Shown: piece after piece, positions 24,407 to 63,177 of the stretch
Position numbering within the stretch: the stretch's first letter is position 1
Layout: each line of letters starts with the position of its first letter
Assembly (NCBI GenBank): GCA_028281285.1
Contig: JANQKF010000020.1
Location: forward strand, 186,001-250,000
Length of the DNA: 64,000 nt
Source of the DNA: Cyclobacteriaceae bacterium
GTDB taxonomy: Bacteria; Bacteroidota; Bacteroidia; Cytophagales; Cyclobacteriaceae
Direction: 5' to 3'
Notes under the pieces: generated by a model
What the model was told of the DNA's origin: nothing
The model's input: the letters and a program-made list of their open reading frames with translations, nothing else
Database searches by the model: none
Program-made: the position numbers and the translations under genes

Positions 24407-25780
24407 CTACAATCCATATTTCTGTAATCTTCTATACAAAGCCAATCGATCAATCCCTAACTCTTTAGCGGCTCTTGTCACATTGCCATTGTGTTTGTCG
24501 AGTGCTTTCAGAATTAGCCGTTTTTCCATTTCCGATAGATTAAGGATATCTTCCTCATCGGTCGTATTTCCTCTTGATGTGCTCAAAAGAAAATCTTCCG
24601 GGGTCAATTTGTTTCCTTCACAAAGAATTATAGCCCTCTCAATGGCATGCTGCAATTCGCGGATATTACCCGGCCAATCGTATCGTTTGAGTTTGGACAG
24701 AGTGTTCTGGTCAATACGCATCTTATCCTTCTTGTATTTTTTGCCATACAATTCCATGAAATGTTTCACCAAGAGATCGATATCATCTTTTCTCTCGCTT
24801 AGTGAAGGCATTCGAATCTCTACCGTATTGATTCTGTAGAGCAAATCCTGACGAAAAGAGCCTTCCTTGACCATATCATAGAGTGGCATGTTTGTGGCAC
24901 ATACCAGACGAATGTCAATCGGAGTTTCCTTTCCTGAACCGACTCTGCTAACTTTTCGTTGCTGGAGCACCGTCAATAGCTTGGCCTGAAGGGGTAGGGA
25001 TAAATTTCCAATTTCATCCAAAAAAAGTGTCCCTCCGGAGGCAAGCTCAAAACGCCCTGGCTTGTCCTCTTTAGCATCAGTAAAGGCCCCTTTCACATGT
25101 CCGAAGAGCTCACTTTCGAATAGTGTTTCGCTGATCGAGCCCAGATCGACATTGATGAACACCTCATTGTTTCGTTCGGATTGTCGATGCAAGGCACGTG
25201 CGGCAAGCTCTTTTCCAGTGCCATTCTCTCCAAGAATCAAGACATTAGCGTCAGTAGGGCCAACTTTTTCAATTAGACCGAAGACCTTCTGAATCGGAAG
25301 GGACTCTCCTATAAAATCGCCAAACTTCTGATCGATTTGATCAACCAAGGTCTTCTGAGTGTTTTTGAGTCGATCGACTTCCAGCTTGCTTTGCCTAAGC
25401 TGTAGAGCAGACTGAATAGTACCAAACAATTTTTCATTCTTCCAGGGCTTGGAAATGAAGTCTGTTGCACCAGCTTTTACCGCTTTCACGGCAAGGTCTA
25501 ACTCTCCATATGCGGTAATTAGAATGACAATTGTATTGGGATCAATATTGAGAATCTGGTTTAACCATTTTAGGCCGTCTTTGCCATCATTTTCGCCTTT
25601 CTTGAAATTCATATCAAGCAAAACAACATCGAAGTTCTCCCTATCAAAATGTTGAGGGATGAGTTCAGGATTATTTTCAATCTGAACCAATGTAAACTGT
25701 TGCTTAAGATACATCCGTGCCGTATTGAGCACATCAATGTCATCATCAACAACCAGGATTTTTGCTTCGGTTTTTGCCAT
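24407..25780 (-). CDS. Sigma-54-dependent NtrC-family response regulator
   Basis: 457 residues. Receiver domain 1-125 with acidic pocket D12-D14, phospho-acceptor Asp56 (VVLLDMNF) and Lys111 (FISKPW). AAA+ domain about 155-385 with Walker A GENGTGKE (184-191), the sigma-54 contact loop as GAFTDA (231-236, a variant of GAFTGA), Walker B LFLDEIGN (252-259) and R-finger region FRQDLLYRINTV. A Fis-type helix-turn-helix follows at about 428-453 (GNVTRAAKELGIDRLALYRR). It should bind paired enhancer sites and activate sigma-54 promoters. Such paired sites lie directly in front of its own start and of the divergent permease array, making the array its likely target. Confidence 0.94.
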   Translation of the reverse strand: MAKTEAKILVVDDDIDVLNTARMYLKQQFTLVQIENNPELIPQHFDRENFDVVLLDMNFKKGENDGKDGLKWLNQILNIDPNTIVILITAYGELDLAVKAVKAGATDFISKPWKNEKLFGTIQSALQLRQSKLEVDRLKNTQKTLVDQIDQKFGDFIGESLPIQKVFGLIEKVGPTDANVLILGENGTGKELAARALHRQSERNNEVFINVDLGSISETLFESELFGHVKGAFTDAKEDKPGRFELASGGTLFLDEIGNLSLPLQAKLLTVLQQRKVSRVGSGKETPIDIRLVCATNMPLYDMVKEGSFRQDLLYRINTVEIRMPSLSERKDDIDLLVKHFMELYGKKYKKDKMRIDQNTLSKLKRYDWPGNIRELQHAIERAIILCEGNKLTPEDFLLSTSRGNTTDEEDILNLSEMEKRLILKALDKHNGNVTRAAKELGIDRLALYRRLQKYGL

Positions 25781-25788
25781 TTCAAGAG

Positions 25789-25827
25789 TGTATCAAAAAC
25801 AAACAGTTAAATGTATTGAAAACAAAC
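25789..25827. promoter_or_regulatory. Paired enhancer-like sites of array promoter 1
   Basis: Two direct copies, TGTATCAAAAACAAAC (25789-25804) and TGTATTGAAAACAAAC (25812-25827), start 23 bp apart. Each holds a TGT-N7-ACA dyad of the kind bound by Fis-type activators. The second copy starts exactly 80 bp before the TGGCAC element at 25892. An equivalent pair with the same spacings precedes permease P8. Confidence 0.7.
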
Positions 25828-25891
25828 TATAATTTACAATCAGTTTCAAAGAAAATATCATAACTAGTTGAATTATAGATAATTATAAACT

Positions 25892-25907
25892 TGGCACTTC
25901 TTTTGGC
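25892..25907 (+). promoter_or_regulatory. Candidate sigma-54 promoter 1, permeases P1-P7
   Basis: TGGCAC-TTCTT-TTGGC. The -24 element matches the sigma-54 consensus fully (TTGGCAC); the -12 element is TTGG(C) rather than TTGC. The same TTGGCTA -12 region and spacing recur before P8. The predicted leader before the ATG at 25937 is about 20 nt. Confidence 0.6.
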
Positions 25908-25936
25908 TATGTAGATGAAAAAAACGCATTTCAGCC

Positions 25937-28363
25937 ATGCTCAAAAATTACTTCAAAACAGCGATTCGCAATCTGACCCGGAATAGGGCGTTTGCCATCA
26001 TCAACATTTTAGGACTCGTTCTTGGGATTTCAGGAACGGTTGTCATTTATAGAATCATCACTTTCGAACGTAGTTTCGACACCTACCACCACGCTGCAGA
26101 AAACATCTATCGGATCAATCTTATTCAGGATGATGAAAGAGGCCTTTTTAGGGGTGTATCGGTCATGCATCCTTTAGGACCCGCTGTGAGAACCGATTTT
26201 CCGGATTGGACTGTTTCCAGGATTCACTGGTATGGTCCTGGTATATTCATGGTCGAAAATGAGCAAGGGATTCAAAAGAAGTTTAGAGAAACTCAAGGTA
26301 TGGCATTCGTTGAACAAGGATTCTTCGAAATTTTTGACTTCGAGATTATTGCTGGAAATCCGGATGACATCCTCAAAGAACCCAACACCTTTGCCTTGTC
26401 GGCCAGTGCTGCCGACAAACTGTTTGAATTAAATGGAACCGGATATCAATCCGTACTAGGTCGGACTGTACAATTCGAAAACAAACTACAGCTTCAGGTT
26501 AAAGCTGTCTATCAGGATTCTCCAAAGAACAGTGACATCCAACTGGATTATTTAATGTTCTATGAAGGGGCGAAAATTTATCCGTATGCCTCTAATCTTA
26601 CCAGTTGGGGAACACGAAACGGGGCGGCACGTCTTTGGGTCAGATTGCCTCAAGGACAAACCGAAGAACAAGCAGAGGCACAATTACGCGAAGCGTCCAA
26701 GAAATACTTGGCGAATATAGGAGCAGGGGGAGACAACGTGTATTTCGGTTTGGAGCCGTTAGCGGATATTCACCTGGATGAAGAAACCGGCCCAGGAGGA
26801 TTTATCAATAAGCGATTAATTCGTGCCATGCAGTTTTTGGCACTATTGCTAATAGTTACTGCCGCAATCAATTTTATAAATCTGGCTACAGCACAATCTG
26901 TAAAAAGAGCTAAGGAAATTGGAATCAGAAAAGTATTGGGTAGTCGAAAAGGACATCTTATTGGTCAATTTTTTGGTGAAGTCTTCCTGATTGTATTTGT
27001 AGCAGTGGTATTGTCTTTAGGACTGAGTGAAGCTGCATTGATGCAGCTGGAACCACTACTTGGATATAGCCTGGGTCTTAATCTCCTTTCGAATCCAGGG
27101 ATGATCTTATTCCTTGTAATACTGCTTTTTGTGGTAACCATTCTTTCGGCATTCTATCCTTCTTTGGTACTAGCCAACTACAACCCGGTGGTTGCCATAA
27201 AGAGTGGGAGCATGTCGTCCAAAACCGGAACAAGCATGTTCGTCAGACGGGCGTTGGTGATCTTTCAGTTCTGTATTTCACAGTTTTTGATTATTGGTAC
27301 CCTGGTTCTTCTTTCACAAATGAGCTTTATGAGAAACCAGCCTCTCGGTTTCGAAACCGAGGCCATCGTGACATTTTCAATTCCTGAGCGAACAGATGAA
27401 AAGATGGATTTGCTCAAAAGCCGTTTACAGGGTATTGCCGGGGTAGGTGACATTAGTTTCTACATTGCCTCTCCAGGAGGTGCCAGAACAAACAATATTG
27501 ATGATATCAAAGATCCACGCGGAGGTGAGGATGACTCATTCAACGCGAATAGAAAAAATGTAGATCATAACTATGCCAGGCTATTCGATCTCGAGTTGGT
27601 GGCTGGAGAATTCTATCGCGACAACGCTACAAATGAACAATGTGTAATCAGTCGGAAATTTGCCGAAAAACTTGGCTATACAGAACCGACATCAGCTGTG
27701 GGTGAGCGGTTTGAAACGAGATGGGGTAGATCGTATATCATCAATGGCGTGGTAGAAGATTTTCATAATAATTCCTTGAGATCGGAAATTCAGCCGGTCT
27801 ACATGATGATCGGACCAAGCCAATACTTTGAGGCCGGTGTCAAACTGAATCTGGATGGAAACTATCAGGCTACTTTGAATAAAATCGAAGAAGTATGGAG
27901 TGAGATATTCACTGCTGATGTGTTCACTCATCAATTCCTGGATGAACGAATTGTTCAGCAATACGATAACGAGAAACGAGTTTCTGAATTGGCTCAGGTT
28001 TTGGCAGGAATTGCCATCTTCATTGGCTGTCTTGGACTCTATGGTCTGATCTCCTTTATGGCCAATCAGAAGGTTAAAGAGATTGGGATACGTAAGGTGC
28101 TAGGCGCTTCTATTACGAATATTGTTGGAATTTTTTCACGAGAAATTATGGTATTACTCGTAGTTGCCTTTGTGATTGCTGCTCCTCTTGGATACTATCT
28201 CGCGAGTAATTGGTTGGATAGTTATGCCTACAGAATCACCATTGGAGTCTCGATATTCGTGGCGGCCATTTTAGCTACGATCATTATCGCAGGAGCCACT
28301 GTTGGACTGCGAGCTTTCAGAGCGGCAAGCGCTAATCCTGTTCAATCATTAAGAGACGAATAA
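25937..28363 (+). CDS. Duplicated FtsX/MacB-type permease, array copy P1
   Basis: 808 residues. TM1 19-42; first MacB-like periplasmic domain about 44-290; TM2 297-318, coupling motif KEIGIRKVLG 326-335, TM3 346-366, TM4 388-412; TM5 437-459; second periplasmic domain about 465-670 (INGVVEDFHNNSL 602-614); TM6 686-708, coupling motif KEIGIRKVLG 714-723, TM7 736-760, TM8 770-790; cytoplasmic end NPVQSLRDE. This is two MacB/LolC-like permease units in one chain. Members of this family shape mechanotransmission-type ABC exporters that need a separate ATPase. It is the first gene behind the sigma-54-like promoter and is closest in type to P3. The transported substrate cannot be told. Confidence 0.93.
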   Translation: MLKNYFKTAIRNLTRNRAFAIINILGLVLGISGTVVIYRIITFERSFDTYHHAAENIYRINLIQDDERGLFRGVSVMHPLGPAVRTDFPDWTVSRIHWYGPGIFMVENEQGIQKKFRETQGMAFVEQGFFEIFDFEIIAGNPDDILKEPNTFALSASAADKLFELNGTGYQSVLGRTVQFENKLQLQVKAVYQDSPKNSDIQLDYLMFYEGAKIYPYASNLTSWGTRNGAARLWVRLPQGQTEEQAEAQLREASKKYLANIGAGGDNVYFGLEPLADIHLDEETGPGGFINKRLIRAMQFLALLLIVTAAINFINLATAQSVKRAKEIGIRKVLGSRKGHLIGQFFGEVFLIVFVAVVLSLGLSEAALMQLEPLLGYSLGLNLLSNPGMILFLVILLFVVTILSAFYPSLVLANYNPVVAIKSGSMSSKTGTSMFVRRALVIFQFCISQFLIIGTLVLLSQMSFMRNQPLGFETEAIVTFSIPERTDEKMDLLKSRLQGIAGVGDISFYIASPGGARTNNIDDIKDPRGGEDDSFNANRKNVDHNYARLFDLELVAGEFYRDNATNEQCVISRKFAEKLGYTEPTSAVGERFETRWGRSYIINGVVEDFHNNSLRSEIQPVYMMIGPSQYFEAGVKLNLDGNYQATLNKIEEVWSEIFTADVFTHQFLDERIVQQYDNEKRVSELAQVLAGIAIFIGCLGLYGLISFMANQKVKEIGIRKVLGASITNIVGIFSREIMVLLVVAFVIAAPLGYYLASNWLDSYAYRITIGVSIFVAAILATIIIAGATVGLRAFRAASANPVQSLRDE

Positions 28364-28375
28364 AACAACACGGTC

Positions 28376-30778
28376 ATGGTTAAAAACTACTTCATCACAG
28401 CATTAAGAAATCTTGCGCGAAACAAGGTCAATACAGCAATCAATGCATTCGGACTGACATTGGGAATCACCTGCTCACTGGTGATTTTCCTTGTAGTTCG
28501 TTACGAATTAAGCTTTAATATGCATAATGCCGATCCGGACCGCATATTCAGAGTGGTGACTGAGCACACTGATTCGGAAGGGTTTACCTCTCAGGCATCA
28601 ATGCAGTTTCCTTTTGTCACCGCTTTCAAAAGTGATTTTCCCGATGTAGCGGCAACGTTTATTCACAATAATGTATCTCCTCCCACTCTCTACATTGAAC
28701 GAAATGGTGAAGAGCTTCGCTTTCAGGAAAGAACCAATCGTTTTGCTTTTGTGCATCCGGATTACCCAAAGATTTTCACACATGAATGGCTGCATGGTAA
28801 TCCTGAAACCGCTTTGACAGAGATCAACTCTATGGTTTTGACGAAAAGCATGGCAGAAAAGCTTTTTGGAAAAACAGACGTGATGGGTGAGATTGTAGGA
28901 TTCAGCAAGATTACAGATATGCTAATTACGGGGGTGGTTGAGGACTATCCAAAAGCCACCGATTTTCCCATAGATATTTTTGTAAGCATAGAGTCCAATG
29001 GACAGTATTCCCGTGATGTATCTTCAGGAAACTGGGGCTCGATCTATGGTGCGGTCAACGCCTTCATCAAGTTGCCCGAAGGCATGACTAAAGAGTCTAT
29101 GGAGGCGAGGTTGGAAGGCTTTGATGTAAAGCATAACCGCAATCTTGATGAAGGAGAAGAATTGGCTCGTGTACTTCAGCCACTTTCAGATTTACACTAT
29201 AATGGAGATTTAGGCAATTACGGCCGTAGAACTATTAGCAAATCCACGCTGTGGGCGATTGGTATTATTGGAATCCTTTTGCTTGTGGCAGCCTGTATAA
29301 ATTTCATCAATCTTAACACTGCACTGGCAGTACGAAGGTCAAAGGAGGTAGGAATTCGCAAAGTACTGGGAAGCGGTAGAAAGAGTTTAGTGATTCAATT
29401 CATGGGTGAAACATTTCTGGTCACTTTTCTAGCCCTGTTGATCTCATTCGGAGGCGTGGAACTAGCCTTAATCAACCTTAAAGCCCATCTGGGATATGAC
29501 TTGGAATTTAATTTATTCCTCGACTCTCAAGCTTCACTTTTCCTTCTCATTACATTTCTTTTTGCGGTGGTGTTCTCAGGGATGTATCCCTCATTTGTGT
29601 TGGCCTCTTATAAGCCGATTGCGGCAATCAGGAACAAGATCACGGCCGAAAAGCAGGGGACTTTCTCTCTGAGAAAAGTGCTCGTGACAACTCAGTTGAT
29701 GATTTCTCAGGCACTAATTATATGCACAGTAATCGTGCTTCAACAGATGGATTATTTCTATAATGCTCCGCTTGGATTGGACAAGGAGTCAGTAATTGAA
29801 TTGGCGTCTCCCGGAGGGCAAGTTGAAAACCAGAGGCTTTTCAAGTCCGGGGCACTCCAAATACCGGGTATTGAAAGTGTGACCAGAACCAATAGCGGTG
29901 CTATTTCAGGGAATGTCTGGTTTGGAAGTTATGAACTCCAACTCAATGGTGAAACGATTGAAAACAGCAGCGAAATCAAGTTTATTGATAAGGATTTTCT
30001 TACTACCTATGGCGTTAAATTGATTGCGGGTCAAAACGTGCTAGAGCGAGATAGCCTGAAAAACTTTCTGGTAAACGAAGAGCTTCTCAAAGAAATTGGC
30101 ATTACAGATTATACTGAAGTATTGGGTAAACCATTCTCCTTCTGGGGTAACACTGGTCAAATTGGAGGAGTAGTGGCAGATTACAATACTAAGTCTCTGC
30201 ACGACTCGATGGAACCTTTGGTCATGGTCTTTGGAGAGGGGTATGGAAGTATGGCCTTGAGGTTCGAAACTCAAGACATTAAAGGCCTATTGTCCTCCTT
30301 GGAAGAGATCTACACCGACATATTCCCGGAACGTGATTTCAATCCGAGATTCCTTGATGAAACAATTGCAAACTTCTATGAGGAAGAGCAAAAGGCGTCC
30401 ACCTTATTTCAAATTGCTGCTGGAATTGCCATCCTGATTGGTTGTATCGGAATGATCGGGCTTATCTCTTATATCGCTACTCAAAAGGTGAAAGAGGTGG
30501 GAATTCGAAAGGTACTCGGTGCGAGTGTTTCCAATATACTGACCCTGTTTTCAAGACAGTTTTTGGTGTTTACGATTCTTGGATTCGTGATTGCCGCTCC
30601 AGTGGCCTTTTATTTAATGAATAGCTGGTTGCAAGGTTTTGAGTATCGAATTAATGTCGGTGCCGATGTCTTTGGCCTCGGCTTGCTAATCACCACTCTA
30701 ATAGTTGTCATATCTGTAGGGTTCAGGGCCTATCGTTCTGCTACCGCCAACCCCGCACAATCACTCAGATCAGAATAA
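28376..30778 (+). CDS. Duplicated FtsX/MacB-type permease, array copy P2
   Basis: 800 residues, same eight-TM, two-periplasmic-domain plan. TM1 about 18-41 carries FGLTLGITCSLVIFLVVR, a variant shared with P7 and P8. First coupling motif KEVGIRKVLGSGRKSL (323-338) follows ACINFINLNTA; the second is KEVGIRKVLGASVSNIL. The second periplasmic domain lacks the usual VVKDFH wording and reads GGVVADYNTKSL. C-terminus NPAQSLRSE. It starts 12 bp after P1, in a spacer with GGTCATG overlapping the start. Probably the same heteromeric system or a parallel exporter; substrate unknown. Confidence 0.93.
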   Translation: MVKNYFITALRNLARNKVNTAINAFGLTLGITCSLVIFLVVRYELSFNMHNADPDRIFRVVTEHTDSEGFTSQASMQFPFVTAFKSDFPDVAATFIHNNVSPPTLYIERNGEELRFQERTNRFAFVHPDYPKIFTHEWLHGNPETALTEINSMVLTKSMAEKLFGKTDVMGEIVGFSKITDMLITGVVEDYPKATDFPIDIFVSIESNGQYSRDVSSGNWGSIYGAVNAFIKLPEGMTKESMEARLEGFDVKHNRNLDEGEELARVLQPLSDLHYNGDLGNYGRRTISKSTLWAIGIIGILLLVAACINFINLNTALAVRRSKEVGIRKVLGSGRKSLVIQFMGETFLVTFLALLISFGGVELALINLKAHLGYDLEFNLFLDSQASLFLLITFLFAVVFSGMYPSFVLASYKPIAAIRNKITAEKQGTFSLRKVLVTTQLMISQALIICTVIVLQQMDYFYNAPLGLDKESVIELASPGGQVENQRLFKSGALQIPGIESVTRTNSGAISGNVWFGSYELQLNGETIENSSEIKFIDKDFLTTYGVKLIAGQNVLERDSLKNFLVNEELLKEIGITDYTEVLGKPFSFWGNTGQIGGVVADYNTKSLHDSMEPLVMVFGEGYGSMALRFETQDIKGLLSSLEEIYTDIFPERDFNPRFLDETIANFYEEEQKASTLFQIAAGIAILIGCIGMIGLISYIATQKVKEVGIRKVLGASVSNILTLFSRQFLVFTILGFVIAAPVAFYLMNSWLQGFEYRINVGADVFGLGLLITTLIVVISVGFRAYRSATANPAQSLRSE

Positions 30779-30784
30779 AAAACT

Positions 30785-33211
30785 ATGCTTAAGAATTATA
30801 TCATTACCGCAATACGAAACCTAAAGAGGAACAAAACCTACACATTCATTAATGTGTTTGGACTTGCCTTGGGTATCAGTGCAGCGCTTGTGCTATTCAA
30901 GATTGTAATCTTTGAAAAGAGCTTTGATAAACATCATTCGAACTTCGAGGATATATACAGGTTCAACAAGGAGGAAATAGCCTCGAACGTGACCGAAGTC
31001 GGCCCCGGAATTCCACACCCTTTTTCAGAGGCCTTCGAGACAGATTTTCCTGACTATGGAATTTTGACAAAGACTTTTTATGCCGGAGATGGTCAGTTGA
31101 GTGTAAAAGGGGCTTCAGGTCAATATCAACATTTTGAAATGGAGAGGGGTGTTGCCTTTACCGACAATAACTTCTTTACAGTATTTGATTTTGAGTTCCT
31201 TGTGGGTGATGTAAAACTAGCATTATCAGGACCGAAGACCACCGTGATCACTGAGTCCCTAGCACTGCGTTTGTTTGGTAAGGATAAGACTGAGTTGGAT
31301 CAGGTTATTGGTCGCGAGATAATGATGGACAATGAGTTGTCTGTCAATGTAGTTGCTGTGATCGCAGACTTGCCTCAAAACACCATGTTTCCATTCCAAA
31401 TCATGATAGACTATGAGTCCTTGGATGGATTCTACGATTTCTTCTTCCCAAATCAATGGGGGGCTTCAAGCTCGCAAGGCAATGTTTTCCTTTTAAAGGC
31501 GGACGGTGTGACTAAGGAGCAAATTGATGCTCAAATGGACGCTTTTGAGAAAAAGCATATGGGAGATGATGCTACTACCAATAACTTTTTTCTACAGCCA
31601 TTAAAGGACGTACATTTTCAACCCGAGGTCGCGGTTTATGGCGATCGATTTATCGACCCTCAGGAAATGATGATTCCTTCATTGGTCGCAATCTTCCTGG
31701 TTCTAACCGCTTGTGTCAATTTTGTGAATTTGGCTACGGCTCAAGCAGTTAAACGTTCAAAAGAAGTTGGGATACGAAAGGTTCTGGGTGGTGAAAAGCG
31801 ACAACTCATACTTCAATTTATGGGTGAGACTTTCTTCCTTACATTGATCGCAGTAATCATATCATTAGGAGTTGCCGAACTGGCAATGAACAATTTTCAA
31901 GAGCTTATAGGATATGAGTTATCACTTAATTTGTTGAATGATCCTCAATTGCCGTTAATCCTTGGATTGACCACGATTGGGGTGACTCTATTGGCAGGTA
32001 TTTATCCCTCTTTGATTTTGTCATCTTTAAAGCCCGTCACGGCCCTGAAAAGCAAAGGACAAGCAGCAATGTCGGGTAAGGTCAATCTACGAAGAGGCCT
32101 GGTGATATTCCAGTTTGCAATATCTCAATTTCTGGTGATTTGCACCTTGGTTGTCATCTCGCAGATGAACTATTTTGAAAACAAAGATCTTGGGTTCAAG
32201 CGATCTTCTATTGTCAACTTTGCATTGCCGGATCGTGACTTTGATAAATTGAACCTGATCGCAAACGAGCTAAGACGAAACGCTCGTGTTTCGGCAGTCA
32301 GTTACGGCTTTAGTACACCAAGTTCCGATTCGAATATTGGTTCAACTTTCAATTACGCCCCATTAGAAAGTGAAAATGGCTTTGATGCTTCATTCAAGGT
32401 AATTGATGAGAATTATCTTGACTTGTACGAAATCCAGTTGCTGGCAGGCAGAAACCTGAAAGCTTCGGATACCACATTCACCAATGTAATGGTATCGGAA
32501 AAAGTACTGCAAATCATGCATATAGATAACCCGGAAGATGCCATAGGTTTGAAAATCCAGACTGGAATCAACGGACCGAAAACCATTGTTGGGGTGTTCA
32601 ATGATTTTCACGCGACTTCATTAAGAGAAGAGATACCTCCTTTATTGATGCTGAACTATCCGGGGTTCTATTATCAGGGAGGAGTGAAATTCGAAGGAGA
32701 TGAAAACCAAACGAAAGATATTATAGCCAACATAGAGGCCCTCTGGGTAGAGCACTACCCGGATTATATATTCGATTATGCGATCTACTCTGAAACACTT
32801 TTGGAATTCTATTCTGATGAAGCAAATATGCTGGATCGTTACCAGGTCTTTTCAGGGATTGCAATCCTGATTGGATGTCTGGGTTTGTATGGCCTTATCT
32901 CATTTATGGCCAACCAGAGAACCAAGGAAATTGGAGTCAGGAAAGTCCTTGGTGCAAGCGTTGGGCAAGTGCTTGGAATCTTCTCGAAGGAATTGACCCT
33001 TTTGATCCTGATCGCATTTTTAGTTGCAGCTCCAGTGGCCTATTACTTCATGAATAGTTGGCTACAGGATTTTGAATACAGCATTTCCATTGGTGTTTGG
33101 GTCTTTGCGGTTGCCGTGGCCTTCACACTTGTCATCGGAGGAGCCACCACAGGCTTCAGGTCCCTCAAAGCGGCCAGAGCTAACCCTGTAGATTCATTAA
33201 GGGCAGAATAA
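30785..33211 (+). CDS. Duplicated FtsX/MacB-type permease, array copy P3
   Basis: 808 residues. First coupling motif KEVGIRKVLGGEKRQLILQF after ACVNFVNLATA; second KEIGVRKVLGASVGQVLGIF after CLGLYGLISFMANQ, a stretch nearly identical in P1. Periplasmic motif VGVFNDFHATSLREEIPP in the second domain. C-terminus NPVDSLRAE. The spacer to P2 is only 6 bp. Its closeness to P1 suggests these two come from one duplication, although overall divergence is substantial. Confidence 0.93.
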   Translation: MLKNYIITAIRNLKRNKTYTFINVFGLALGISAALVLFKIVIFEKSFDKHHSNFEDIYRFNKEEIASNVTEVGPGIPHPFSEAFETDFPDYGILTKTFYAGDGQLSVKGASGQYQHFEMERGVAFTDNNFFTVFDFEFLVGDVKLALSGPKTTVITESLALRLFGKDKTELDQVIGREIMMDNELSVNVVAVIADLPQNTMFPFQIMIDYESLDGFYDFFFPNQWGASSSQGNVFLLKADGVTKEQIDAQMDAFEKKHMGDDATTNNFFLQPLKDVHFQPEVAVYGDRFIDPQEMMIPSLVAIFLVLTACVNFVNLATAQAVKRSKEVGIRKVLGGEKRQLILQFMGETFFLTLIAVIISLGVAELAMNNFQELIGYELSLNLLNDPQLPLILGLTTIGVTLLAGIYPSLILSSLKPVTALKSKGQAAMSGKVNLRRGLVIFQFAISQFLVICTLVVISQMNYFENKDLGFKRSSIVNFALPDRDFDKLNLIANELRRNARVSAVSYGFSTPSSDSNIGSTFNYAPLESENGFDASFKVIDENYLDLYEIQLLAGRNLKASDTTFTNVMVSEKVLQIMHIDNPEDAIGLKIQTGINGPKTIVGVFNDFHATSLREEIPPLLMLNYPGFYYQGGVKFEGDENQTKDIIANIEALWVEHYPDYIFDYAIYSETLLEFYSDEANMLDRYQVFSGIAILIGCLGLYGLISFMANQRTKEIGVRKVLGASVGQVLGIFSKELTLLILIAFLVAAPVAYYFMNSWLQDFEYSISIGVWVFAVAVAFTLVIGGATTGFRSLKAARANPVDSLRAE

Positions 33212-33222
33212 AATTTAGAATT

Positions 33223-35610: not shown

Positions 35611-35621
35611 ATTAAAAGGTC

Positions 35622-38021
35622 ATGTTAAAAAATTACTTCAAAGTTGCTTATAGAAATCTTGTCCGTGACAAGTTCTTTTCCTTGTTGAACATACTTGGTT
35701 TGACAGCTGGCGTTGCTGCATTCTTGCTTATTTCTCTCTATGTAAGACATGAGCTGAGTTATGATAACTTTCATAGAAATGGGGATAGGATATATACCCA
35801 TATAACACAGTATATGACAGCTGAGGGCCCCATTAATGGTGGAACATTCAGCGTATTGGGTGGCTTGGAGTTCGAGAAAAAAATACCGGAAATCGAACAT
35901 ATTGCTCAGCTGGCCCCCGTAGGAGCCAACTTGATCGGCTTGACGGACCGGTCCTTCTATGAGGAGAATATCTATTATTCTGACAAGGATGTTTTTGAGG
36001 TTTTTGATTTCCCGATAATCAAAGGGGCACTGGATTTAGAATCACCATATAAGGCAGTGGTAACGGAGTCTATTGCCAAAAAGTATTTTGGGGATGAGGA
36101 TCCTATTGGACAGCTGATCACGCTTGATAAATCAGAGACTTATGAGATTACTGCGGTAGCAAAAGACCTTCCCAACAATTCCTATATCCAATTCAATTTA
36201 CTACTGTCAAATTATGTTCTTCTCAACAAGGTGATTCCTGGTTCTGAATTGGTCAGCAATCAATGGGGGAAATACGCACACACCTTTTACTTGCTCAAGG
36301 AAGGAGTAAGCGAACAAGTGGTCTTGGATAAGATGATGGCTGTTGCTGAAGAAAGTTTTCATTCACGACTTCACCGCAGTGAGGAGGGTAAGCTTTGGTT
36401 TAAGGCTCGAATGATGCCCTTCCAGGATATTCATTTGGAATCAGGTTTCAAGAGAGGAATGAGTGCTACAAGTGACATGAAATACATCTATCTCTTCTCT
36501 GCTATAGCTGCATTGATTTTAATAATCGCCTGTGTCAACTATATCAATTTGTCCACGGCCAAATCGATTCGCAGAGCAAAAGAAACTGGTCTGCGGAAAG
36601 TAGTTGGGGCAAGTAGAGCACAACTGGTCAAGCTTTATATTACTGAGTCATTTGTTTTGACTACTATTTCAGTATTTCTGGCATTCGCAATTGCCGAAAG
36701 AGCTTTGCCATACTATGGTCGCCTGGTAGAACGAGAGCTGAGTTTGATCTATGGAGGTGCGGAGTTCATATTTACAATTATCATTATCAATATTGTTGTC
36801 AGTTTCATAGCAGGAGCTTATCCTGCTTTTAAGCTTAGCAGTTACGAGCCCGTAGAGGCAATTCGGGGATCCAAGAGCCCGAAAGGGAAGAAGTCATTGA
36901 GGCGGAGTTTGGTGCTGTTCCAATTTCTGGTAGCTCAACTTCTGATAATTGCTACCATCGTTATTCAAAGTCAACTTCAATATCTACAGAATAAGGATCT
37001 CGGTTATAATCGAGAACAGGCACTTTATATAAATGCTCATGGAGAGCTAAAAGAAGAAATAAATGTGTTCAAAGATAAAATCAGAGCCCTTCCGAATGTA
37101 CAGTCCCTGGCTGCTTCAGATGGGGTTTTCACATGGTCAATGATCTCATTCTTTGATTTAAGTAGTGTGGAGGGAAATGAAGACATAGAGGAGGACCAAA
37201 TGGTGGTAGCGGATGTGTTTGTAGGAGAACCAGAATTTGTAGATGTTTTGGAAATCGAAATCGTTGAAGGAAGGCGATTCGATCCTGATAATACCAGTGA
37301 TCTGAAGGAAGGGATTTTGATAAATGAAACTGCAGTGAAAAGGTTTGGGTGGAGTGATAACCCCATTGGTAGAAAAATTGACAGCTGGGGAGGCAAATAT
37401 GTCATTGGTGTGATGAAAGATTTTCACAACGAGTCGCTTCGTGCCGAGATTAAACCTGCTTTTATCTTAGTTAACCAAAATGCACACCAGTTTGTCAACC
37501 TGCGTTTGACAGGTACGGATATTCCTGAAACGATTGATCAGATTGAAGAGGCTTGGAACGAAATGGTTGAGGGAAGGCCATTAGAATATACTTTTTATGA
37601 TGACAAGTTTGATCAACACTATAAAGGAGAGATGCGACTTGGTGAAATTTTTACAGCTTTCGCCTCCCTGGCCATTGGAATTTCTCTTCTAGGTCTCGTA
37701 GGACTAACAGCATTTACAGCTGAACAAAGATTGAAAGAAATAGGAATAAGAAAGGTTTTGGGAGCAACTATAGGGCAGGTTATGAGCCTGTTGTCAAAGG
37801 AATTCATCGTATTGAGCCTCATCGCTTTTGTAATGGCAATACCTATTACATTCTATTCGATGAATCAATGGCTCTCAGCATTTAAATATCGGATTGATAT
37901 TGGTCTCATGGTGTACATGATTGCCATTTTGGCCTCCATTGGAGTCGCCTGGTTGGTGGTTAGCCTTCAGGCGATCAAAGTGGCAAGAAGTAATCCTGTC
38001 AATGTGTTAAGAACCGAATAA
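35622..38021 (+). CDS. Duplicated FtsX/MacB-type permease, array copy P5
   Basis: 799 residues. First coupling motif is altered to KETGLRKVVGASRAQLVKLY (Thr and Leu at positions that are Ile/Val elsewhere); the second is standard, KEIGIRKVLGATIGQVMSLL. TM2 reads IIACVNYINLSTAKSIRRA. Second periplasmic domain carries VIGVMKDFHNESLRAEI. C-terminus NPVNVLRTE. It starts 11 bp after P4, with AAAAGGTCATG across the start. The first half-unit may contact its ATPase differently. Confidence 0.93.
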   Translation: MLKNYFKVAYRNLVRDKFFSLLNILGLTAGVAAFLLISLYVRHELSYDNFHRNGDRIYTHITQYMTAEGPINGGTFSVLGGLEFEKKIPEIEHIAQLAPVGANLIGLTDRSFYEENIYYSDKDVFEVFDFPIIKGALDLESPYKAVVTESIAKKYFGDEDPIGQLITLDKSETYEITAVAKDLPNNSYIQFNLLLSNYVLLNKVIPGSELVSNQWGKYAHTFYLLKEGVSEQVVLDKMMAVAEESFHSRLHRSEEGKLWFKARMMPFQDIHLESGFKRGMSATSDMKYIYLFSAIAALILIIACVNYINLSTAKSIRRAKETGLRKVVGASRAQLVKLYITESFVLTTISVFLAFAIAERALPYYGRLVERELSLIYGGAEFIFTIIIINIVVSFIAGAYPAFKLSSYEPVEAIRGSKSPKGKKSLRRSLVLFQFLVAQLLIIATIVIQSQLQYLQNKDLGYNREQALYINAHGELKEEINVFKDKIRALPNVQSLAASDGVFTWSMISFFDLSSVEGNEDIEEDQMVVADVFVGEPEFVDVLEIEIVEGRRFDPDNTSDLKEGILINETAVKRFGWSDNPIGRKIDSWGGKYVIGVMKDFHNESLRAEIKPAFILVNQNAHQFVNLRLTGTDIPETIDQIEEAWNEMVEGRPLEYTFYDDKFDQHYKGEMRLGEIFTAFASLAIGISLLGLVGLTAFTAEQRLKEIGIRKVLGATIGQVMSLLSKEFIVLSLIAFVMAIPITFYSMNQWLSAFKYRIDIGLMVYMIAILASIGVAWLVVSLQAIKVARSNPVNVLRTE

Positions 38022-38032
38022 ACAACAAGGTC

Positions 38033-40396
38033 ATGTTCAAAAACTATTTTTCAACAACATTTCGCTCATTAAAAAAGAGCCCGATTTTCACGGCAATTAA
38101 TGTCTTGGGGCTGTCTGTTGGTATTGCAGCATTTATACTTGTTGCAGTATTTGTCAGAGATGAAGTCACTTATGATCGCTTTCATTCTGAACACGATCGC
38201 ATCTATCGGGGGATGACATTTTACAAACAAGGGTTTGTCACAGGAATTCCAGATAAACTGATTGACCTGGTTAAGGAAGCCATACCTGAATATGAATCAG
38301 TGGTCCGGATCAATTTTGGTGGTCGATCGGTGATGGAATATAACGGTGAGAAAGTCTTTGAGGAAGAGTTCTATCGGGCCGATCAGAGCATATTTGATGT
38401 GTTCGATTTTTCATTGAAGTATGGTGATGAATCTAATGCGCTAGTTGCCCAGAATAGTGTGGTGCTTTCTACCTACATGGCAAATAAGTATTTCGGGAGG
38501 GAAAATGTAGTAGGTGAATCTTTCCAAACACTGAATAGTGAAAAGCCGATGTTGGTAACCGGGGTGTTGAATGAAATCCCGAATAACTCGAGGTTTCAAT
38601 TCAATGCAATTATGCCAATTGAAAAAAAGGAATTGAACGAAAAGAGGCCCTGGAGTGATTCCGGAGGTCTTATGTATTTGTTGCTTAAAGAGCCCATTGA
38701 TGAAGAGCAGTTTTCAGCGAAACTTATGGACCTGGCCAGGGAGAATGGCTATGGACAGTCTGAGAATACCGAATTCACAATTGAGAATTTCGGTGATCTG
38801 TACTTAAACAGTGATTGGTCATTCACAGCTTCTGGTGTTAGTGGAAATAAGAAGTTCATAGTTATTTTCTCCATAGTAGGAGTGGCGTTGCTGCTACTGG
38901 CGTGTATTAACTATGTCAATTCATCCACTGCCAAATCATTAACAAGACTCAAGGAAGTGGGGGTAAGGAAAGTGGTAGGTGCGGCCCCGATTCAAATCAG
39001 AACTCAATTCTACTTAGAAACGGCCATCTTCGTGACACTGGCAGTTGTAGTAGGTGCAGGATTAGCCGAGTATTTTCTGCCTACCTTGAATGAACTGGCC
39101 GGTAAAAAATTGAACCTGGATTATTTTTCAGATTGGTTCATACTCTCCTTCTTAATTGTTCTCATTCCTTCGTTGACATTGCTAAGTGGGTTTTATCCGG
39201 CATTGTTTATAAGTCGATTCAAGATGTTGAAGGTCTTGAAAGGCGAAGTGATAGGCGGAAAGGGGACCTTTCGGAAGGTGCTAGTGGTCTTTCAATTTGT
39301 GACCACATTAGTCCTTCTGTTCGGGACACAAATTATTACCAAGCAGATTGATTTCTTTATGAGTGCCGATATAGGCATGAATCCTGAAGGTGTGATTTCG
39401 GCTTATACCCCGAGAGCATCTTATCTACCAGACTTGAAGACATATATCCGTACCAAATCGACACTGGAAAAAATACCGGGTGTTGAAGGCGTGACTTCTT
39501 CTCCTTTCCCAAGTGTTAGCAGCTCTGCAATGCCCATTGAATGGAAGGTGGAAAATGAAGACCAAAAGCAGAATGTCTATTATATCCGGGTAGATGTGAA
39601 TGCACTGAGCTTGTTGGGTGTGGAAATAACCAGAGGGAGGGATTTCAATCCGGAGAGTCTTGAAGATAAAAACAAGTCTGTGATAATCAGTGAATCTCTG
39701 GTGGCCGATTTAGGGTTTGAAGATCCTGTTGGTCAAATGATTAGGGTGAAAGGCGACAACTATGAGCTGGTACCGAAAACCATCATTGGTGTGTTCAAAG
39801 ACCCGGCATTCAACCTGAAAGGAAACCCTCCCAAGCGAGTAGTCGTGCCTAGTGAAGCTCTGTTTCGCATCAATATTAGAATGGATGGTTCAAATGATCC
39901 GGAGACACTTGTGCGGATAAAGGAGGCCTGGGCGGAGCTAGAGCCAAATACTCCTTTCCAGTATTCATTTATGGAGGATCAGATTGCTGCCAACTATGAT
40001 AAAGAGCGCAAGTTCGGAAAGATCATTAAGTACTTTTCCGCGATGGCCATATTCATAGCCGCGTTGGGCTTGTTTGGATTAAGCATTTTCACGATTGCTC
40101 AAAAATACAAGGAAATTGGGATTCGGAAGACGTTGGGTGCTTCTGTTCAAGGGCTTGTGTTTAAACTCCTGAAGGGCTATACCAGTCTCATACTTTTAGC
40201 ATCACTTGTGGCGGTTCCAGCGGCATATTTCCTTATGGATATATGGCTTTCCGACTTTGTTAATCGGGTGAATATCGGAGTGTTTAATTTCATACTAGGG
40301 ATAGGTTTTGCGCTGATGATTGTAAGTTTAACTGTTGGTTATCAATCAATTAAGGCTGCCTTAATGAATCCGGTTAATATTCTTAGAGACGAATAA
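38033..40396 (+). CDS. Duplicated FtsX/MacB-type permease, array copy P6
   Basis: 787 residues, one of the shortest copies. First coupling motif KEVGVRKVVGAAPIQIRTQF after ACINYVNSSTA; second KEIGIRKTLGASVQGLVFKL, where Thr replaces Val, followed by LLKGY as in P13. The second periplasmic domain has IIGVFKDPAFNLKGNPPK in place of the usual VKDFH segment. C-terminus NPVNILRDE. It starts 11 bp after P5 with AAGGTCATG over the start. P6 and P13 form a divergent pair within the array. Confidence 0.93.
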   Translation: MFKNYFSTTFRSLKKSPIFTAINVLGLSVGIAAFILVAVFVRDEVTYDRFHSEHDRIYRGMTFYKQGFVTGIPDKLIDLVKEAIPEYESVVRINFGGRSVMEYNGEKVFEEEFYRADQSIFDVFDFSLKYGDESNALVAQNSVVLSTYMANKYFGRENVVGESFQTLNSEKPMLVTGVLNEIPNNSRFQFNAIMPIEKKELNEKRPWSDSGGLMYLLLKEPIDEEQFSAKLMDLARENGYGQSENTEFTIENFGDLYLNSDWSFTASGVSGNKKFIVIFSIVGVALLLLACINYVNSSTAKSLTRLKEVGVRKVVGAAPIQIRTQFYLETAIFVTLAVVVGAGLAEYFLPTLNELAGKKLNLDYFSDWFILSFLIVLIPSLTLLSGFYPALFISRFKMLKVLKGEVIGGKGTFRKVLVVFQFVTTLVLLFGTQIITKQIDFFMSADIGMNPEGVISAYTPRASYLPDLKTYIRTKSTLEKIPGVEGVTSSPFPSVSSSAMPIEWKVENEDQKQNVYYIRVDVNALSLLGVEITRGRDFNPESLEDKNKSVIISESLVADLGFEDPVGQMIRVKGDNYELVPKTIIGVFKDPAFNLKGNPPKRVVVPSEALFRINIRMDGSNDPETLVRIKEAWAELEPNTPFQYSFMEDQIAANYDKERKFGKIIKYFSAMAIFIAALGLFGLSIFTIAQKYKEIGIRKTLGASVQGLVFKLLKGYTSLILLASLVAVPAAYFLMDIWLSDFVNRVNIGVFNFILGIGFALMIVSLTVGYQSIKAALMNPVNILRDE

Positions 40397-40411
40397 TTAA
40401 AACTCAAAACC

Positions 40412-42805
40412 ATGGTCAAGAAAAACTTCAAATCACTGCTTAGAAGATTCAAACAAAGAAAGATTTTCACCCTGATCAATCTGGGAGGTCTTACCCTGGG
40501 CATCACCTGTAGTTTGGTGATGTTTCTGATTGTGACGCACGAATTCAGCTATGATAATTTTCATACTAATGCTGATAGACTTTATCGAATTACCACTGAA
40601 AGGACCTTTAATGACGTGACCCGACAGGGGGTAGGTGTACCTCGTCCACTTCCGGTAGCAGTGAAAGAAGATATTGTTGGAATCGAAGAAGTGACTTTCT
40701 TCTCTCATCAGCGTTTCGGTCAATTTAAGATGACCAACGCATCGGGTGAAGAGAATGAATTTATTGAAAACACCGGCATGGTTTACGTCCAGCCTAACTT
40801 TTTTAATCTATTCGATTGGGAATGGTTGGAAGGTGATAGTGAGAACGCTTTGATTCAGCCCAATACGGTGGTTCTGGACACCGAAAATGCTGAAAAATTC
40901 TTTCCGGGAGAATCACCTATAGGAAAGACTATTCGCTTCAATGATCAGATCGATTTAATGGTGACAGGTCTGGTGAAGGAAAGGCCTGTGAATACTGATT
41001 TTCCATTTGAGATATTTATTTCGATGGCGACTATGGAAGCGAATAATGATATGACGAATTGGGGAAGTACTTATAGTGACGATCGTTGCTATGTACTCCT
41101 TAATCAAGGGGTCACTCCGGAGTCTGTGGATGCCCAATTCCATGATATGTTGGTGAAGCATGTTGGAGAGAATGTCAGGAGTAAGTTGAGTCTTCAGGCC
41201 ATGGGAGAAATTCATTTCGATGAGGTTCCGGGTAGAGGTAATCTCAATTATCGGAGCATAGGTAAGAATCTTCTTTACGTTCTGATTGCGGTCTGTATTT
41301 TCATGGTGATAACAGCCTGTTTCAATTTTATCAATATGTCGACAGCTATGGCCATTAGAAGGGCCAAGGAAGTAGGTGTCAGGAAGGTGTTGGGAAGTAC
41401 CAGAAAGCAGCTTATCACTAGCTTTTTAATTGAAACAGGCACGATTACACTCCTATCTATACTGATTTCGTTGGCCGTGACCGAACGACTATTACCTACC
41501 ACCGTAAAGCAATTAACCGAGCTTGACCTCACCTTAAATCTATTGGGTGATACTCAATTGATAATGTATTTGGTAGGGCTTTTGGTATTTGTAACGCTGG
41601 TGGCCGGACTTTATCCCGCTTGGATGATTTCTGCGTTTCGACCGGCTCAGGTTTTGAGAGGTACGGTTTTGGGGGCAAAGGGGCGAAAAATGGGGCTTCG
41701 AAGAACATTGGTTACTTTTCAATTTGCACTGTCACAGGTTTTCATTTTTGGAACTCTGGTGGCCATTTGGCAAATGAGTTATATTCGAAATGTCGATCTG
41801 GGATATGATCGAGACTGGATTGTTTATGTGAACTTGCCGGATAATTCTGAGGAGCGACTCAACATTTGGAAGGCGGACCTGGAGTCGAACACTTCAGTAA
41901 ACAATTACTCTCTGGCCGCAACTCCTCCTTTTTCGGGCTCAACTTCAAGTACCGATGCTAATTTCACAAATGAAAGTGGTGAACACCGACTCACGGTCTT
42001 CCTAAAACAGGCCGATAGCCGTTATCTGGATACGTATGGATTGACACTTTTGGCAGGCGAGGGGCTATTGGAGTCAAAAGAGGCTAATCGTTTCTTGGTC
42101 AATGAGACCTTTGTTAAAAAGATGGGGACCACATCTCAGGAGGCTTTGGGTCAGGTTGTCAAAATCAATGGAATATCAGCTCCGATATCCGGTGTGGTGA
42201 AGGATTTCCATATGAGCACCCTGAAACATGAAATTGGCTCAATTGCCCTTTTCAATGATCAACAAAGGTACAGATCCCTTGGAGTAAGTTTCAGACCTGG
42301 TACAACCGATGAGGTACTTGATCAACTTGAGACCACCTGGACCAAGGCTTACCCTAATCACGACTTTCGATATACCTTCTTCGATGAGTCCATCGAGCGC
42401 TATTATTTCAGAGAGAAGAAGTTTTCAAAGATGTTGACCACATTTGCCGGCATTGCCATCTTCATCTGTTGCCTCGGGCTGTATGGATTAGTCTCTTATA
42501 TGGCCAACCAAAGAACCAAAGAGGTTGGTATCCGAAAAGTACTTGGAGCTTCGGTGAGTAGCATTGTAAAGTCATTCTCAATGGAGTTTGTAAAATTAGT
42601 GGGCATCGCATTTCTGGTAGCCGCTCCATTGGCTTACTATGGAATGCAAGGTTGGCTGAGCAACTTTGTTTATCACATCGAAATCGGACCGATGATATTC
42701 ACAGTAGGTGTGGTAGCCTCTTTGGTGATCACAATGCTAACTACCGGTTACCGCTCTTACAGAGCTGCCCGGGCAAACCCGGTAGAGTCGCTCAGAGATG
42801 AATAA
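40412..42805 (+). CDS. Duplicated FtsX/MacB-type permease, array copy P7
   Basis: 797 residues. TM1 GGLTLGITCSLVMFLIV; TM2 TACFNFINMSTAMAIRRA; first coupling motif KEVGVRKVLGSTRKQLITSF; second periplasmic motif SGVVKDFHMSTLKHEIG; TM6 FAGIAIFICCLGLYGLVSYM with a Cys pair; second coupling motif KEVGIRKVLGASVSSIVKSF. C-terminus NPVESLRDE. It is last in the first transcription unit; an intrinsic terminator follows at 42845. It is clearly the nearest relative of P8, its neighbour across the terminator and second promoter. Confidence 0.93.
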   Translation: MVKKNFKSLLRRFKQRKIFTLINLGGLTLGITCSLVMFLIVTHEFSYDNFHTNADRLYRITTERTFNDVTRQGVGVPRPLPVAVKEDIVGIEEVTFFSHQRFGQFKMTNASGEENEFIENTGMVYVQPNFFNLFDWEWLEGDSENALIQPNTVVLDTENAEKFFPGESPIGKTIRFNDQIDLMVTGLVKERPVNTDFPFEIFISMATMEANNDMTNWGSTYSDDRCYVLLNQGVTPESVDAQFHDMLVKHVGENVRSKLSLQAMGEIHFDEVPGRGNLNYRSIGKNLLYVLIAVCIFMVITACFNFINMSTAMAIRRAKEVGVRKVLGSTRKQLITSFLIETGTITLLSILISLAVTERLLPTTVKQLTELDLTLNLLGDTQLIMYLVGLLVFVTLVAGLYPAWMISAFRPAQVLRGTVLGAKGRKMGLRRTLVTFQFALSQVFIFGTLVAIWQMSYIRNVDLGYDRDWIVYVNLPDNSEERLNIWKADLESNTSVNNYSLAATPPFSGSTSSTDANFTNESGEHRLTVFLKQADSRYLDTYGLTLLAGEGLLESKEANRFLVNETFVKKMGTTSQEALGQVVKINGISAPISGVVKDFHMSTLKHEIGSIALFNDQQRYRSLGVSFRPGTTDEVLDQLETTWTKAYPNHDFRYTFFDESIERYYFREKKFSKMLTTFAGIAIFICCLGLYGLVSYMANQRTKEVGIRKVLGASVSSIVKSFSMEFVKLVGIAFLVAAPLAYYGMQGWLSNFVYHIEIGPMIFTVGVVASLVITMLTTGYRSYRAARANPVESLRDE

Positions 42806-42809
42806 AAAC

Positions 42810-42848
42810 TGTATTAAAAACAAACACTTTAGTGTTGTAAAAACAAAC
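42810..42848. promoter_or_regulatory. Paired enhancer-like sites of array promoter 2
   Basis: TGTATTAAAAACAAAC (42810-42825) and TGTTGTAAAAACAAAC (42833-42848), starting 23 bp apart, with the second starting 80 bp before TGGCAT at 42913. Spacing and sequence match the pair before P1. The second copy overlaps the left arm of the terminator. Confidence 0.7.
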
Positions 42849-42876
42849 GATTTCTGACCTTCGGAAATCGTTTTTT
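42845..42876 (+). terminator. Intrinsic terminator between P7 and P8
   Basis: AAACGATTTC (42845-42854) pairs with GAAATCGTTT (42864-42873); inner T-G, G-C and A-T pairs extend the stem, leaving a CCT loop. A run of T follows. It lies 40 nt after the P7 stop and splits the array into two units. Confidence 0.85.
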
Positions 42877-42883
42877 ATTTGTA

Positions 42884-42906
42884 ACTAACTGATAAATAGT
42901 TAGTTG
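42884..42906. promoter_or_regulatory. AACTAACT/AGTTAGTT dyad before promoter 2
   Basis: AACTAACT-GATAAAT-AGTTAGTT, perfect 8-bp arms with a 7-bp spacer, between the enhancer pair and the -24 element. At the matching position of promoter 1 (from 25861) TAACTAGTTGA occurs, also a dyad. Aligned at the -24 element, the preceding 31 bp of the two promoters agree at about two thirds of positions. Role unknown. Confidence 0.45.
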
Positions 42907-42912
42907 AAAAAC

Positions 42913-42928
42913 TGGCATTGAAATTGGC
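42913..42928 (+). promoter_or_regulatory. Candidate sigma-54 promoter 2, permeases P8-P15
   Basis: TGGCAT-TGAAA-TTGGC, the same spacing and TTGGCTA -12 region as promoter 1, with T for C at the end of the -24 element. The predicted leader to the ATG at 42980 is about 40 nt and contains the hairpin at 42932-42946. Confidence 0.55.
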
Positions 42929-42931
42929 TAA

Positions 42932-42946
42932 GAGTGCGTAGCACTC
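42932..42946. promoter_or_regulatory. Small dyad at predicted start site of promoter 2
   Basis: GAGTGC-GTA-GCACTC, 6-bp perfect arms, lies just where transcription from promoter 2 would start. It has no counterpart at promoter 1. It may be an operator or a 5' hairpin. Confidence 0.35.
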
Positions 42947-42979
42947 GTCAATCAGAGTGGGGAAAATAAACGAGAACCA

Positions 42980-45373: not shown

Positions 45374-45384
45374 AACTTAAGGTC

Positions 45385-47799: not shown

Positions 47800-47800
47800 A

Positions 47801-55017: not shown

Positions 55018-55020
55018 GTT

Positions 55021-57342: not shown

Positions 57343-57344
57343 TC

Positions 57345-59723: not shown

Positions 59724-59734
59724 AGCCTGAAGTT

Positions 59735-62098: not shown

Positions 62099-62109
62099 AA
62101 ACAGAAACC

Positions 62110-62592: not shown

Positions 62593-62603
62593 GGCTTTTC
62601 AGT

Positions 62604-63065: not shown

Positions 63066-63177
63066 ATCTCGTGATTTTAAGATTTATGGGCAGGCTGAAT
63101 GCTAAATATAGATGAAATTAGAGAAAAATCATCTTCAGAATGGCCAATACAGAATTACTCAATTAAAGGAACAGAGA

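Follow-up and report, generated by a model that had tools for sequence, protein, structure and literature searches.

Tandem pairs of activator sites are a familiar feature of promoters controlled by bacterial enhancer-binding proteins (bEBPs) of the NtrC family. For such sigma-54-dependent systems, enhancer sites 100–150 bp upstream, looping of the DNA, and assistance by integration host factor (IHF) are established (PMC7057263), and one upstream activating sequence (UAS) may hold several sites (PMC4641369). A comparable arrangement occurs twice in a 64,000-nt stretch of a Cyclobacteriaceae genome (contig JANQKF010000020.1, positions 186,001 to 250,000; hereafter the window), in which the genes of a sigma-54 enhancer-binding response regulator (EBP) and a histidine kinase lie directly before, and divergent from, an array of 15 genes for permeases of about 800 aa each (25937 to 62098). 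Very likely, the promoters P1, before an operon of seven permease genes, and P8, before an operon of eight, are of the sigma-54 type and are activated by this EBP via tandem UAS (Table 1).

As far as the available part of PMC7057263 goes, the array shares with NtrC-family promoters the location of the sites about 100 bp upstream, an EBP with receiver, AAA+, and HTH_8 domains, the -24 element, and a possible intervening element of the bend type. It differs in the -12 element (TTGG), the EBP motif (GAFTDA), a 23 bp/80 bp geometry that is kept over genera although the letters of the sites have changed, and, at P8, in the terminator of the upstream operon, which is located within the loop and has bases in common with UAS2. 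EBP genes that co-localize with target operons carrying conserved sigma-54 promoters and sites have been reported for Desulfovibrio on the basis of comparative genomics (PMC4641369). The present EBP likewise lies beside presumed target operons with conserved promoters and sites, but in another phylum, and the accessible portion of the Desulfovibrio study describes no terminator in the loop. According to the predictions of a survey from 2025, COG0577/FtsX permeases are under sigma-54 control in Bacteroidia, Opitutia, and gamma-Proteobacteria, which the survey calls the first such evidence (PMC12316311). The same permease family is found here under predicted sigma-54 promoters, and one of the three classes belongs to the same phylum; whereas the survey, in its available part, gives only the enrichment of the COG, the array, the EBP, the UAS geometry, and the internal promoter are added here. 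In Flavobacterium psychrophilum, groESL and an ATP-dependent endopeptidase are listed with sigma-54-type (SM4) promoters, in a regulon with mapped start sites (PMC9723704). Promoters of the -24/-12 type at chaperone and protease genes of Bacteroidota are shared with the present genome (dnaK and lon), whereas the consulted part of the SM4 study describes no permease array or tandem UAS. Among titles and abstract beginnings of the open-access literature, neither a terminator inside a sigma-54 enhancer loop nor a permease array with tandem UAS was found; no open-access paper was found on sigma-54 in Roseivirga. The present analysis adds the regulator of the array and its sites, a geometry that persists while the letters of the sites turn over, a second promoter, and a terminator within the loop.

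Table 1. Predicted control elements, regulatory genes, and permease operons in the window.
Feature	Position	Strand	Basis
Sensor histidine kinase, adjoins regulator, proposed partner	22966–24321	-	HATPase_c
Sigma-54 enhancer-binding response regulator (EBP)	24407–25780	-	Pfam Response_reg, Sigma54_activat, HTH_8
P1 UAS1, TGTATCAAAAACAAACA	25789–25805	+	Pair in 16/19 genus genomes
P1 UAS2, TGTATTGAAAACAAAC	25812–25827	+	Window, genome, and genus pair searches
P1 proximal dyad (TAA-N4-CTG-N5-CAG-N4-TTA type)	25861–25885	+	Alignment, genome search
P1 -24/-12 element, TTGGCACTTCTTTTGGCTA	25891–25909	+	Window motif search; spacing count
Operon 1, seven MacB_PCD/FtsX permease genes	25937–42805	+	Gaps 6–15 bp
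P8 UAS1, TGTATTAAAAACAAACA	42810–42826	+	Window and genome pair searches
P8 UAS2, TGTTGTAAAAACAAAC	42833–42848	+	Window and genome pair searches
Intrinsic terminator at the end of operon 1 (stem of 13 bp, loop of 3, tail rich in T)	42845–42880	+	Folding, covariation
P8 proximal dyad	42882–42906	+	Alignment, genome search
P8 -24/-12 element, CTGGCATTGAAATTGGCTA	42912–42930	+	Window motif search; spacing count
Operon 2, eight MacB_PCD/FtsX permease genes	42980–62098	+	Gaps -4 to 11 bp

An earlier note on this DNA, made from the sequence alone, had described two array promoters with the same enhancer/-24 geometry: 16-mers at 25789, 25812, 42810, and 42833, TGGCAC at 25892, and TGGCAT at 42913, with 23 bp between the members of each pair and 80 bp from UAS2 to TGG. 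All of these were found as described, and two dyad sites about 100 bp upstream, as expected for a bEBP with tandem UAS, are present at both promoters. Exact matches to TGTNNNNAAAACAAAC in the window are confined to the four UAS sites. Single sites with up to two mismatches are uninformative, because their 15 matches in the window compare with 11.4 expected; the search for the 23-bp-spaced pair that the note had proposed, run over the 5.16-Mb genome with a 39-bp pattern and up to three mismatches, returned P1 and P8 only (reversed control: 0). The two promoters are identical at 32/39 positions of the UAS block, 29/64 positions of the whole loop, and 13/19 positions of the -24/-12 element. The claim that the DNA between the elements is much less conserved holds for the distal loop (10/34) but less so for the approximately 25 bp that adjoin the -24 element (17/25). 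The loop is not featureless, judging from the predicted proximal dyad at both promoters and the predicted terminator at P8.

The closest named relatives of the genome are members of Roseivirga; its regulator is 94% identical to that of one Roseivirga metagenome-assembled genome (MAG) and 79–86% identical to those of seven other loci (six carry the name Roseivirga), and the genome is therefore tentatively placed near this genus. Among 19 genomes of the Roseivirga type (own genome included), the pair is present in 16 and occurs twice in 10 of those; the three genomes that lack it are G197 and two assemblies with a completeness of just 80% and 84%. A protein search recovered an orthologue of the regulator (79–100% identity) in 17 of the 19 genomes, namely the 16 carriers of the pair and G197; the best match in G201 reached 60%, and G204 had none at 1e-100. 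In G197, UAS1 reads TGTTTGTTTTCAAACA (TGTTTG-TTTT-CAAACA), a perfect 16-bp dyad in two 6-base arms, which starts 22 bp before UAS2, and UAS2 is located 80 bp from TTGGCAC. The first pair lies between the EBP and the first permease in 18 mapped loci, and the second pair directly before a gene with M08 (permease 8) as its best BLAST match in 10 of the 16 genomes. Together, these are 28 pair-bearing promoters (18 first and 10 internal; the G197 variant is excluded) of the genus and of g29, a second genus. TGG, sought at 79–82 bp from UAS2, is present in all of them, 80 bp away in 25 promoters and 81 bp away in the other 3. A listing of TGGC over 160 bp gave the same distance at the covered pair promoters of the genus and g29 except L008, where the -24 element reads TGGTC. 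The mean information across the 28 promoters is 1.93 bits in UAS1, 1.74 in UAS2, 0.48 in the distal loop, 0.99 in the dyad, and 1.81 in the -24/-12 element; the values for UAS and TGG are inflated, because the pair was used to find the rows and TGG to anchor them.

The geometry extends beyond the genus. Two genomes of g29 (regulator 55–56%) have the pair 81 bp from ATGGCAC, and in one of them (L103) the EBP gene starts about 270 bp from the pair. From the best 80 of 134 relatives of the regulator, 20 loci were tested that have a permease-like open reading frame (ORF) divergent from and at most 700 bp from the EBP (L103 and L104 excluded). In 15 of them, TGT is found at both 78–83 and 101–105 bp before TGG[CT][AT], whereas base shuffles lead one to expect 0.11; these comprise 7 of the 8 loci within the genus and 8 of the 12 outside it, with 108 to 257 bp between the EBP start and TGG. 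The impression of the earlier note that the geometry looks selected is supported both by these loci and by the distance of 80 or 81 bp in 28/28 promoters. Several observations weigh against so simple a picture. Five of the 20 loci fail the strict geometry (L008, L029, L047, L051, and L080), among them L008 with its TGGTC and L029 with CGT at UAS2. A second class of EBPs with the helix LTRSSLYRR has mostly TGTCCG...CGGACA-like and CGTTCA...TGAACG-like palindromes centered near 81.5 and 61.5 bp, so that the geometry must be considered class-specific, not universal. Three pair matches in the genus g48 (L083, L084, and L092; maps L105–L107) were excluded from the members, since neither an EBP nor a permease gene was detected in their vicinity. 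One further locus (L024) with two loose sites at 30-bp spacing was set aside.

The g48 matches, which are unrelated to such genes, would also fit the alternative that the sites belong to another DNA-binding protein, be it a global regulator, one that acts independently of the EBP, or one that represses the EBP gene, and that their position before the sigma-54-like promoters is incidental. UAS1 of P1 lies 8 bp before the start codon of the EBP gene, where a repressor of that gene could sit (and which makes autoregulation by the EBP possible). Against this explanation, the genome contains just two pairs, each before a permease operon, and P8 has no divergent gene; in g29, the pair is far from the start of the EBP gene but keeps its distance of 81 bp to TGG, and pair and EBP orthologue co-occur in 17/17 genomes of the genus when the G197 variant is counted. 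A foreign owner of the sites is therefore unlikely, and the adjacency of the regulator, the uniqueness of the pair, and this co-occurrence point to the EBP as the protein that recognizes them.

The letters of the sites appear to follow the recognition helix of the EBP, which in the window reads GIDRLALYRR, at least in part, as suggested by a comparison made by eye. AAACAAAC is present upstream in 9/9 EBP-permease loci with the helix DRLALYR and in 2 of 11 others (L070 and L080), and arms of the TGTATC/GATACA type occur in seven loci with the helix TRTALYR or TRTSLYR. Exceptions that count against such tracking are L070 (helix LARAALYRR; C-terminus read separately because its row in the alignment is incomplete), which has a CAAACA-armed site; L013 (DRLALYRR), which has neither a AAACAAAC site nor a permease neighbor; and L067, L076, and L079 (ITRTALYRR), which have TGT...GGACA sites instead of GATACA. 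They weaken the correspondence to the point that it was not adopted as firm proof of the link between regulator and sites.

The earlier note had also proposed that each site contains a TGT-N7-ACA dyad, as expected for a Fis-type activator encoded next door. Such an activator gene does adjoin P1 (HTH_8 sigma-54 activator according to Pfam), and TGT-N7-ACA can be read literally in each of the four sites but probably does not represent the recognition dyad. UAS1 of Roseivirga is a 17-mer (TGTATCAAAAACAAACA) with the structure TGT-N11-ACA, and relatives (L016, L017, L043, and L067) have dyads of 16–18 bp with the ends TGT...ACA at about the same place. The shorter version, which uses an internal ACA, was rejected in view of these dyads and the palindromic UAS1 of G197; the recognition dyad is probably TGT-N10/11-ACA. 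The possibility that the repeats are elements of Bacteroidota housekeeping promoters on the opposite strand (TAnnTTTG form; PMC9723704), considered by eye, agrees neither with the 23-bp spacing nor with the occurrence of the repeats at P8, where there is no divergent gene. A scan for promoters of the sigma-70 type gave no excess over expectation.

Both promoters have the form TGGCAY-N5-TTGGCTA, in which the spacing of GG-N10 to the G at -12 is kept. In the window, TTGGCAY-N5-TTGGCTA matches P1 and P8 only at up to one mismatch (18 matches vs 10.1 expected at up to three). Because the -12 element reads TTGG and not the canonical TTGC, the promoters are said here to work like sigma-54-dependent ones. 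This deviation speaks against a sigma-54 promoter and for the alternative that the elements are parts of promoters for a housekeeping or extracytoplasmic function (ECF) sigma factor, as does the finding that TTGGCAY-N5-TTGC is no more common in the genome than its reversed control (4 vs 4). Of the 17 matches to TTGGCAY-N5-TTGG in the genome (reversed control 0, probably biased low because it contains CG), 11 lie inside ORFs (at least 100 aa, either strand), so that the motif alone is weak evidence; the other six are intergenic, 46–75 bp before a start codon. Some orthologous promoters deviate more: the first promoter of L202 has TTGGTC at -24, those of L101 and L193 have TTAG, and L103/L104 have no TTG. 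Opposed to a different sigma factor are the conserved GG-N10-G spacing, the presence of the same -24 form before dnaK (TTGA at -12) and lon (TTGC), both named from reading their translations, and the occurrence of the motif within 420 bp upstream of 44 of the 80 related EBP genes but never on the other strand of these upstream stretches. An origin from housekeeping or ECF promoters is accordingly very unlikely. At -12, TTG is followed by G in 38 of the 44 loci, whereas 3 loci have C, 2 have A, and 1 has T, and a lineage-specific shift in the recognition of the -12 element by sigma-54 is possible; the three loci with C are L057 (Phaeodactylibacter MAG), L063 (Saprospirales MAG), and L070 (Bacteroidia MAG). 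The genome encodes rpoN (one Sigma54_DBD match, 8.6e-58).

The EBP of the window has GAFTDA in place of GAFTGA in its sigma-54 contact loop, which is a listed variant that would keep activity (PMC4641369, in its available part). The motif is G[AS]FTDA (GAFTDA or GSFTDA, not GAFTGA) in 80 of 81 aligned EBP rows; the remaining row (L070) ends before it. The adjoining kinase has AtoS/ZraS-like matches that are below the respective cut-offs.

Binding, looping, transcription starts, and dependence on sigma-54 (rpoN) are predicted from the sequence. The neighboring kinase probably phosphorylates the EBP, whose dimers would bind UAS1 and UAS2 and then assemble the AAA+ oligomer. The spacer of about 80 bp would bend, aided by the conserved dyad adjoining the -24 element and perhaps by binding of the only HU/IHF-family protein found in the genome to this dyad, so that the oligomer could remodel the sigma-54 RNA polymerase at TTGGCAY-N5-TTGG. 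P1 would drive permeases 1–7 and P8 permeases 8–15, with predicted starts near 25918 and 42939.

The proximal dyad (TAA-N4-CTG-N5-CAG-N4-TTA) spans -31 to -7, counted from the first base of TGG, and is centered 19 bp before TGG (2 of the 28 rows, near-identical to others, were dropped from its analysis). Since the complementarity of its arms does not exceed that of shuffled sequences (matched in 1794 of 2000), an RNA-type structure was rejected and the dyad was treated as sequence-specific. The consensus of IHF sites is WATCAANNNNTTR. Its best fit is 31 bp before TGG (a mean of 0.75 of positions vs 0.41 over offsets); the left part of the dyad resembles this consensus, and the element is dyad-symmetric, unlike an IHF site. 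Perhaps it is a lineage-specific bend or activator site; one gene of the HU/IHF family was found in the genome. A search of the genome for the dyad plus TGGCA at two spacings gave 12 matches (L237–L248; reversed control 1), 10 of which are intergenic: P1, P8, two before permease-like genes, four before genes for small predicted exported proteins, one before a regulator gene, and one that no called ORF follows. Promoters of the P1/P8 type had supplied the motif; the other eight intergenic matches were not part of that set. The same dyad was seen by eye in the relatives L017, L029, and L043. The small predicted exported proteins (L244, L246, L247, and L248; the three measured have 116–122 aa) are encoded downstream of sigma-54-like promoters that contain dyads, for example TGTACGATTTCGTTACA, and are perhaps the regulon of a second EBP.

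At P8, the region between UAS2 and the -24 element contains a hairpin of -14.2 kcal/mol (z -4.88), the 5' arm of which begins in the AAAC at the end of UAS2. A comparable hairpin (score at least 15) is present at 7 of the 10 internal promoters, whereas the best of the 18 first promoters scores 13; the other three internal promoters lack a strong terminator, which weighs against the present interpretation. In the 10 internal rows, 82.3% of the cells pair, both partners vary in 8 of the 13 pairs, and the covariation score is higher than in any of 500 shuffles, with the caveat that the structure was taken from the window, which favors its sequence, and that relatedness inflates the scores. A stable stem, a T-rich tail, and compensatory changes, as in an intrinsic terminator, are all present. 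A generic terminator scan gave 26 hits vs 15.3 expected at 25700–45400 and 17 vs 16.2 at 44001–64000, and therefore only the folded, covarying terminator was used.

Operon 1 most likely ends inside the control region of P8; its transcripts would therefore cross the P8 enhancer, as its polymerase would pass UAS1 and UAS2 before stopping. Because the terminator sits in the P8 loop, P8 should be needed for operon 2. This bears on the alternative that P1 alone is active and P8 a silent relic, whose 174-bp gap came with the duplication of permeases 7 and 8. Such a history would agree with the similarity of these two permeases, whose 47% is the second highest value among pairs of the array, and with the absence of an internal pair (at up to three mismatches) from 6 of the 16 pair-bearing genomes of the genus. 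Yet the internal pair and the -24 element are kept before the M08 match in 10 genomes, and if P8 did not fire, the strong terminator just before it would permit little expression of operon 2, which makes a silent P8 highly improbable. One may speculate, with considerable doubt, that the sandwich of enhancer, terminator, and promoter couples the two operons, and that the halves of the array alternate rather than being simply co-expressed. In that case, strong firing of P1 would displace the activator from P8, or the presence of EBP on UAS2 would hinder or aid termination.

The presumed regulon offers concrete, testable access to a large and poorly understood family of ATPase-less permeases in Bacteroidota, since its regulator can be named, its sites are defined exactly, and natural variants of it exist. 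The geometry that is kept despite changed site letters provides a natural series for the strictness of phasing in bEBP enhancers, and the terminator in the enhancer-promoter loop raises the question whether an operon is tuned by transcripts that run over its enhancer from the preceding one.

The intergenic gaps of the array measure -4 to 15 bp, with the 174 bp before permease 8 as the sole exception. All 14 array permeases tested with Pfam have MacB_PCD and FtsX domains, and no ABC ATPase domain was found in these 14; the 15th (57345–59723) was assigned by its BLAST matches to other permeases only. In these domains, the size of about 800 aa, and the lack of a detected ATPase domain, they resemble the duplicated permeases of the ADOP family (TIGR03434), but the two array permeases tested with NCBIfam score 264.5 and 284.5 bits, below the cut-off of 622.3, and are not assigned to it. 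Permeases 12 and 14 (M12/M14; 52639–59723) are the most alike pair of the array (64% identity), followed by permeases 7 and 8, which flank P8 (40412–45373); all other pairs share less than 40%, which suggests more recent duplications in these two cases. In one MAG (L005 7348–9916; L195 2713–5281), the first array permease consists of two overlapping ORFs, owing to a frameshift or an assembly error. Three small ORFs 3' of the array (62110–63873; 160, 153, and 133 aa) have no Pfam or NCBIfam match at 0.001. Outside the array, the window encodes a 16th MacB_PCD/FtsX permease on the reverse strand (12479–15001) and a protein with FtsX_ECD and FtsX domains (8397–9311). On contig C40 of the same genome (around 80446; L143), a stand-alone ABC ATPase gene, of the LolD/MacB type according to its translation, begins 51 bp after the start of TTGGCATGTTAATTGG and is a candidate for the ATPase partner of the permeases.

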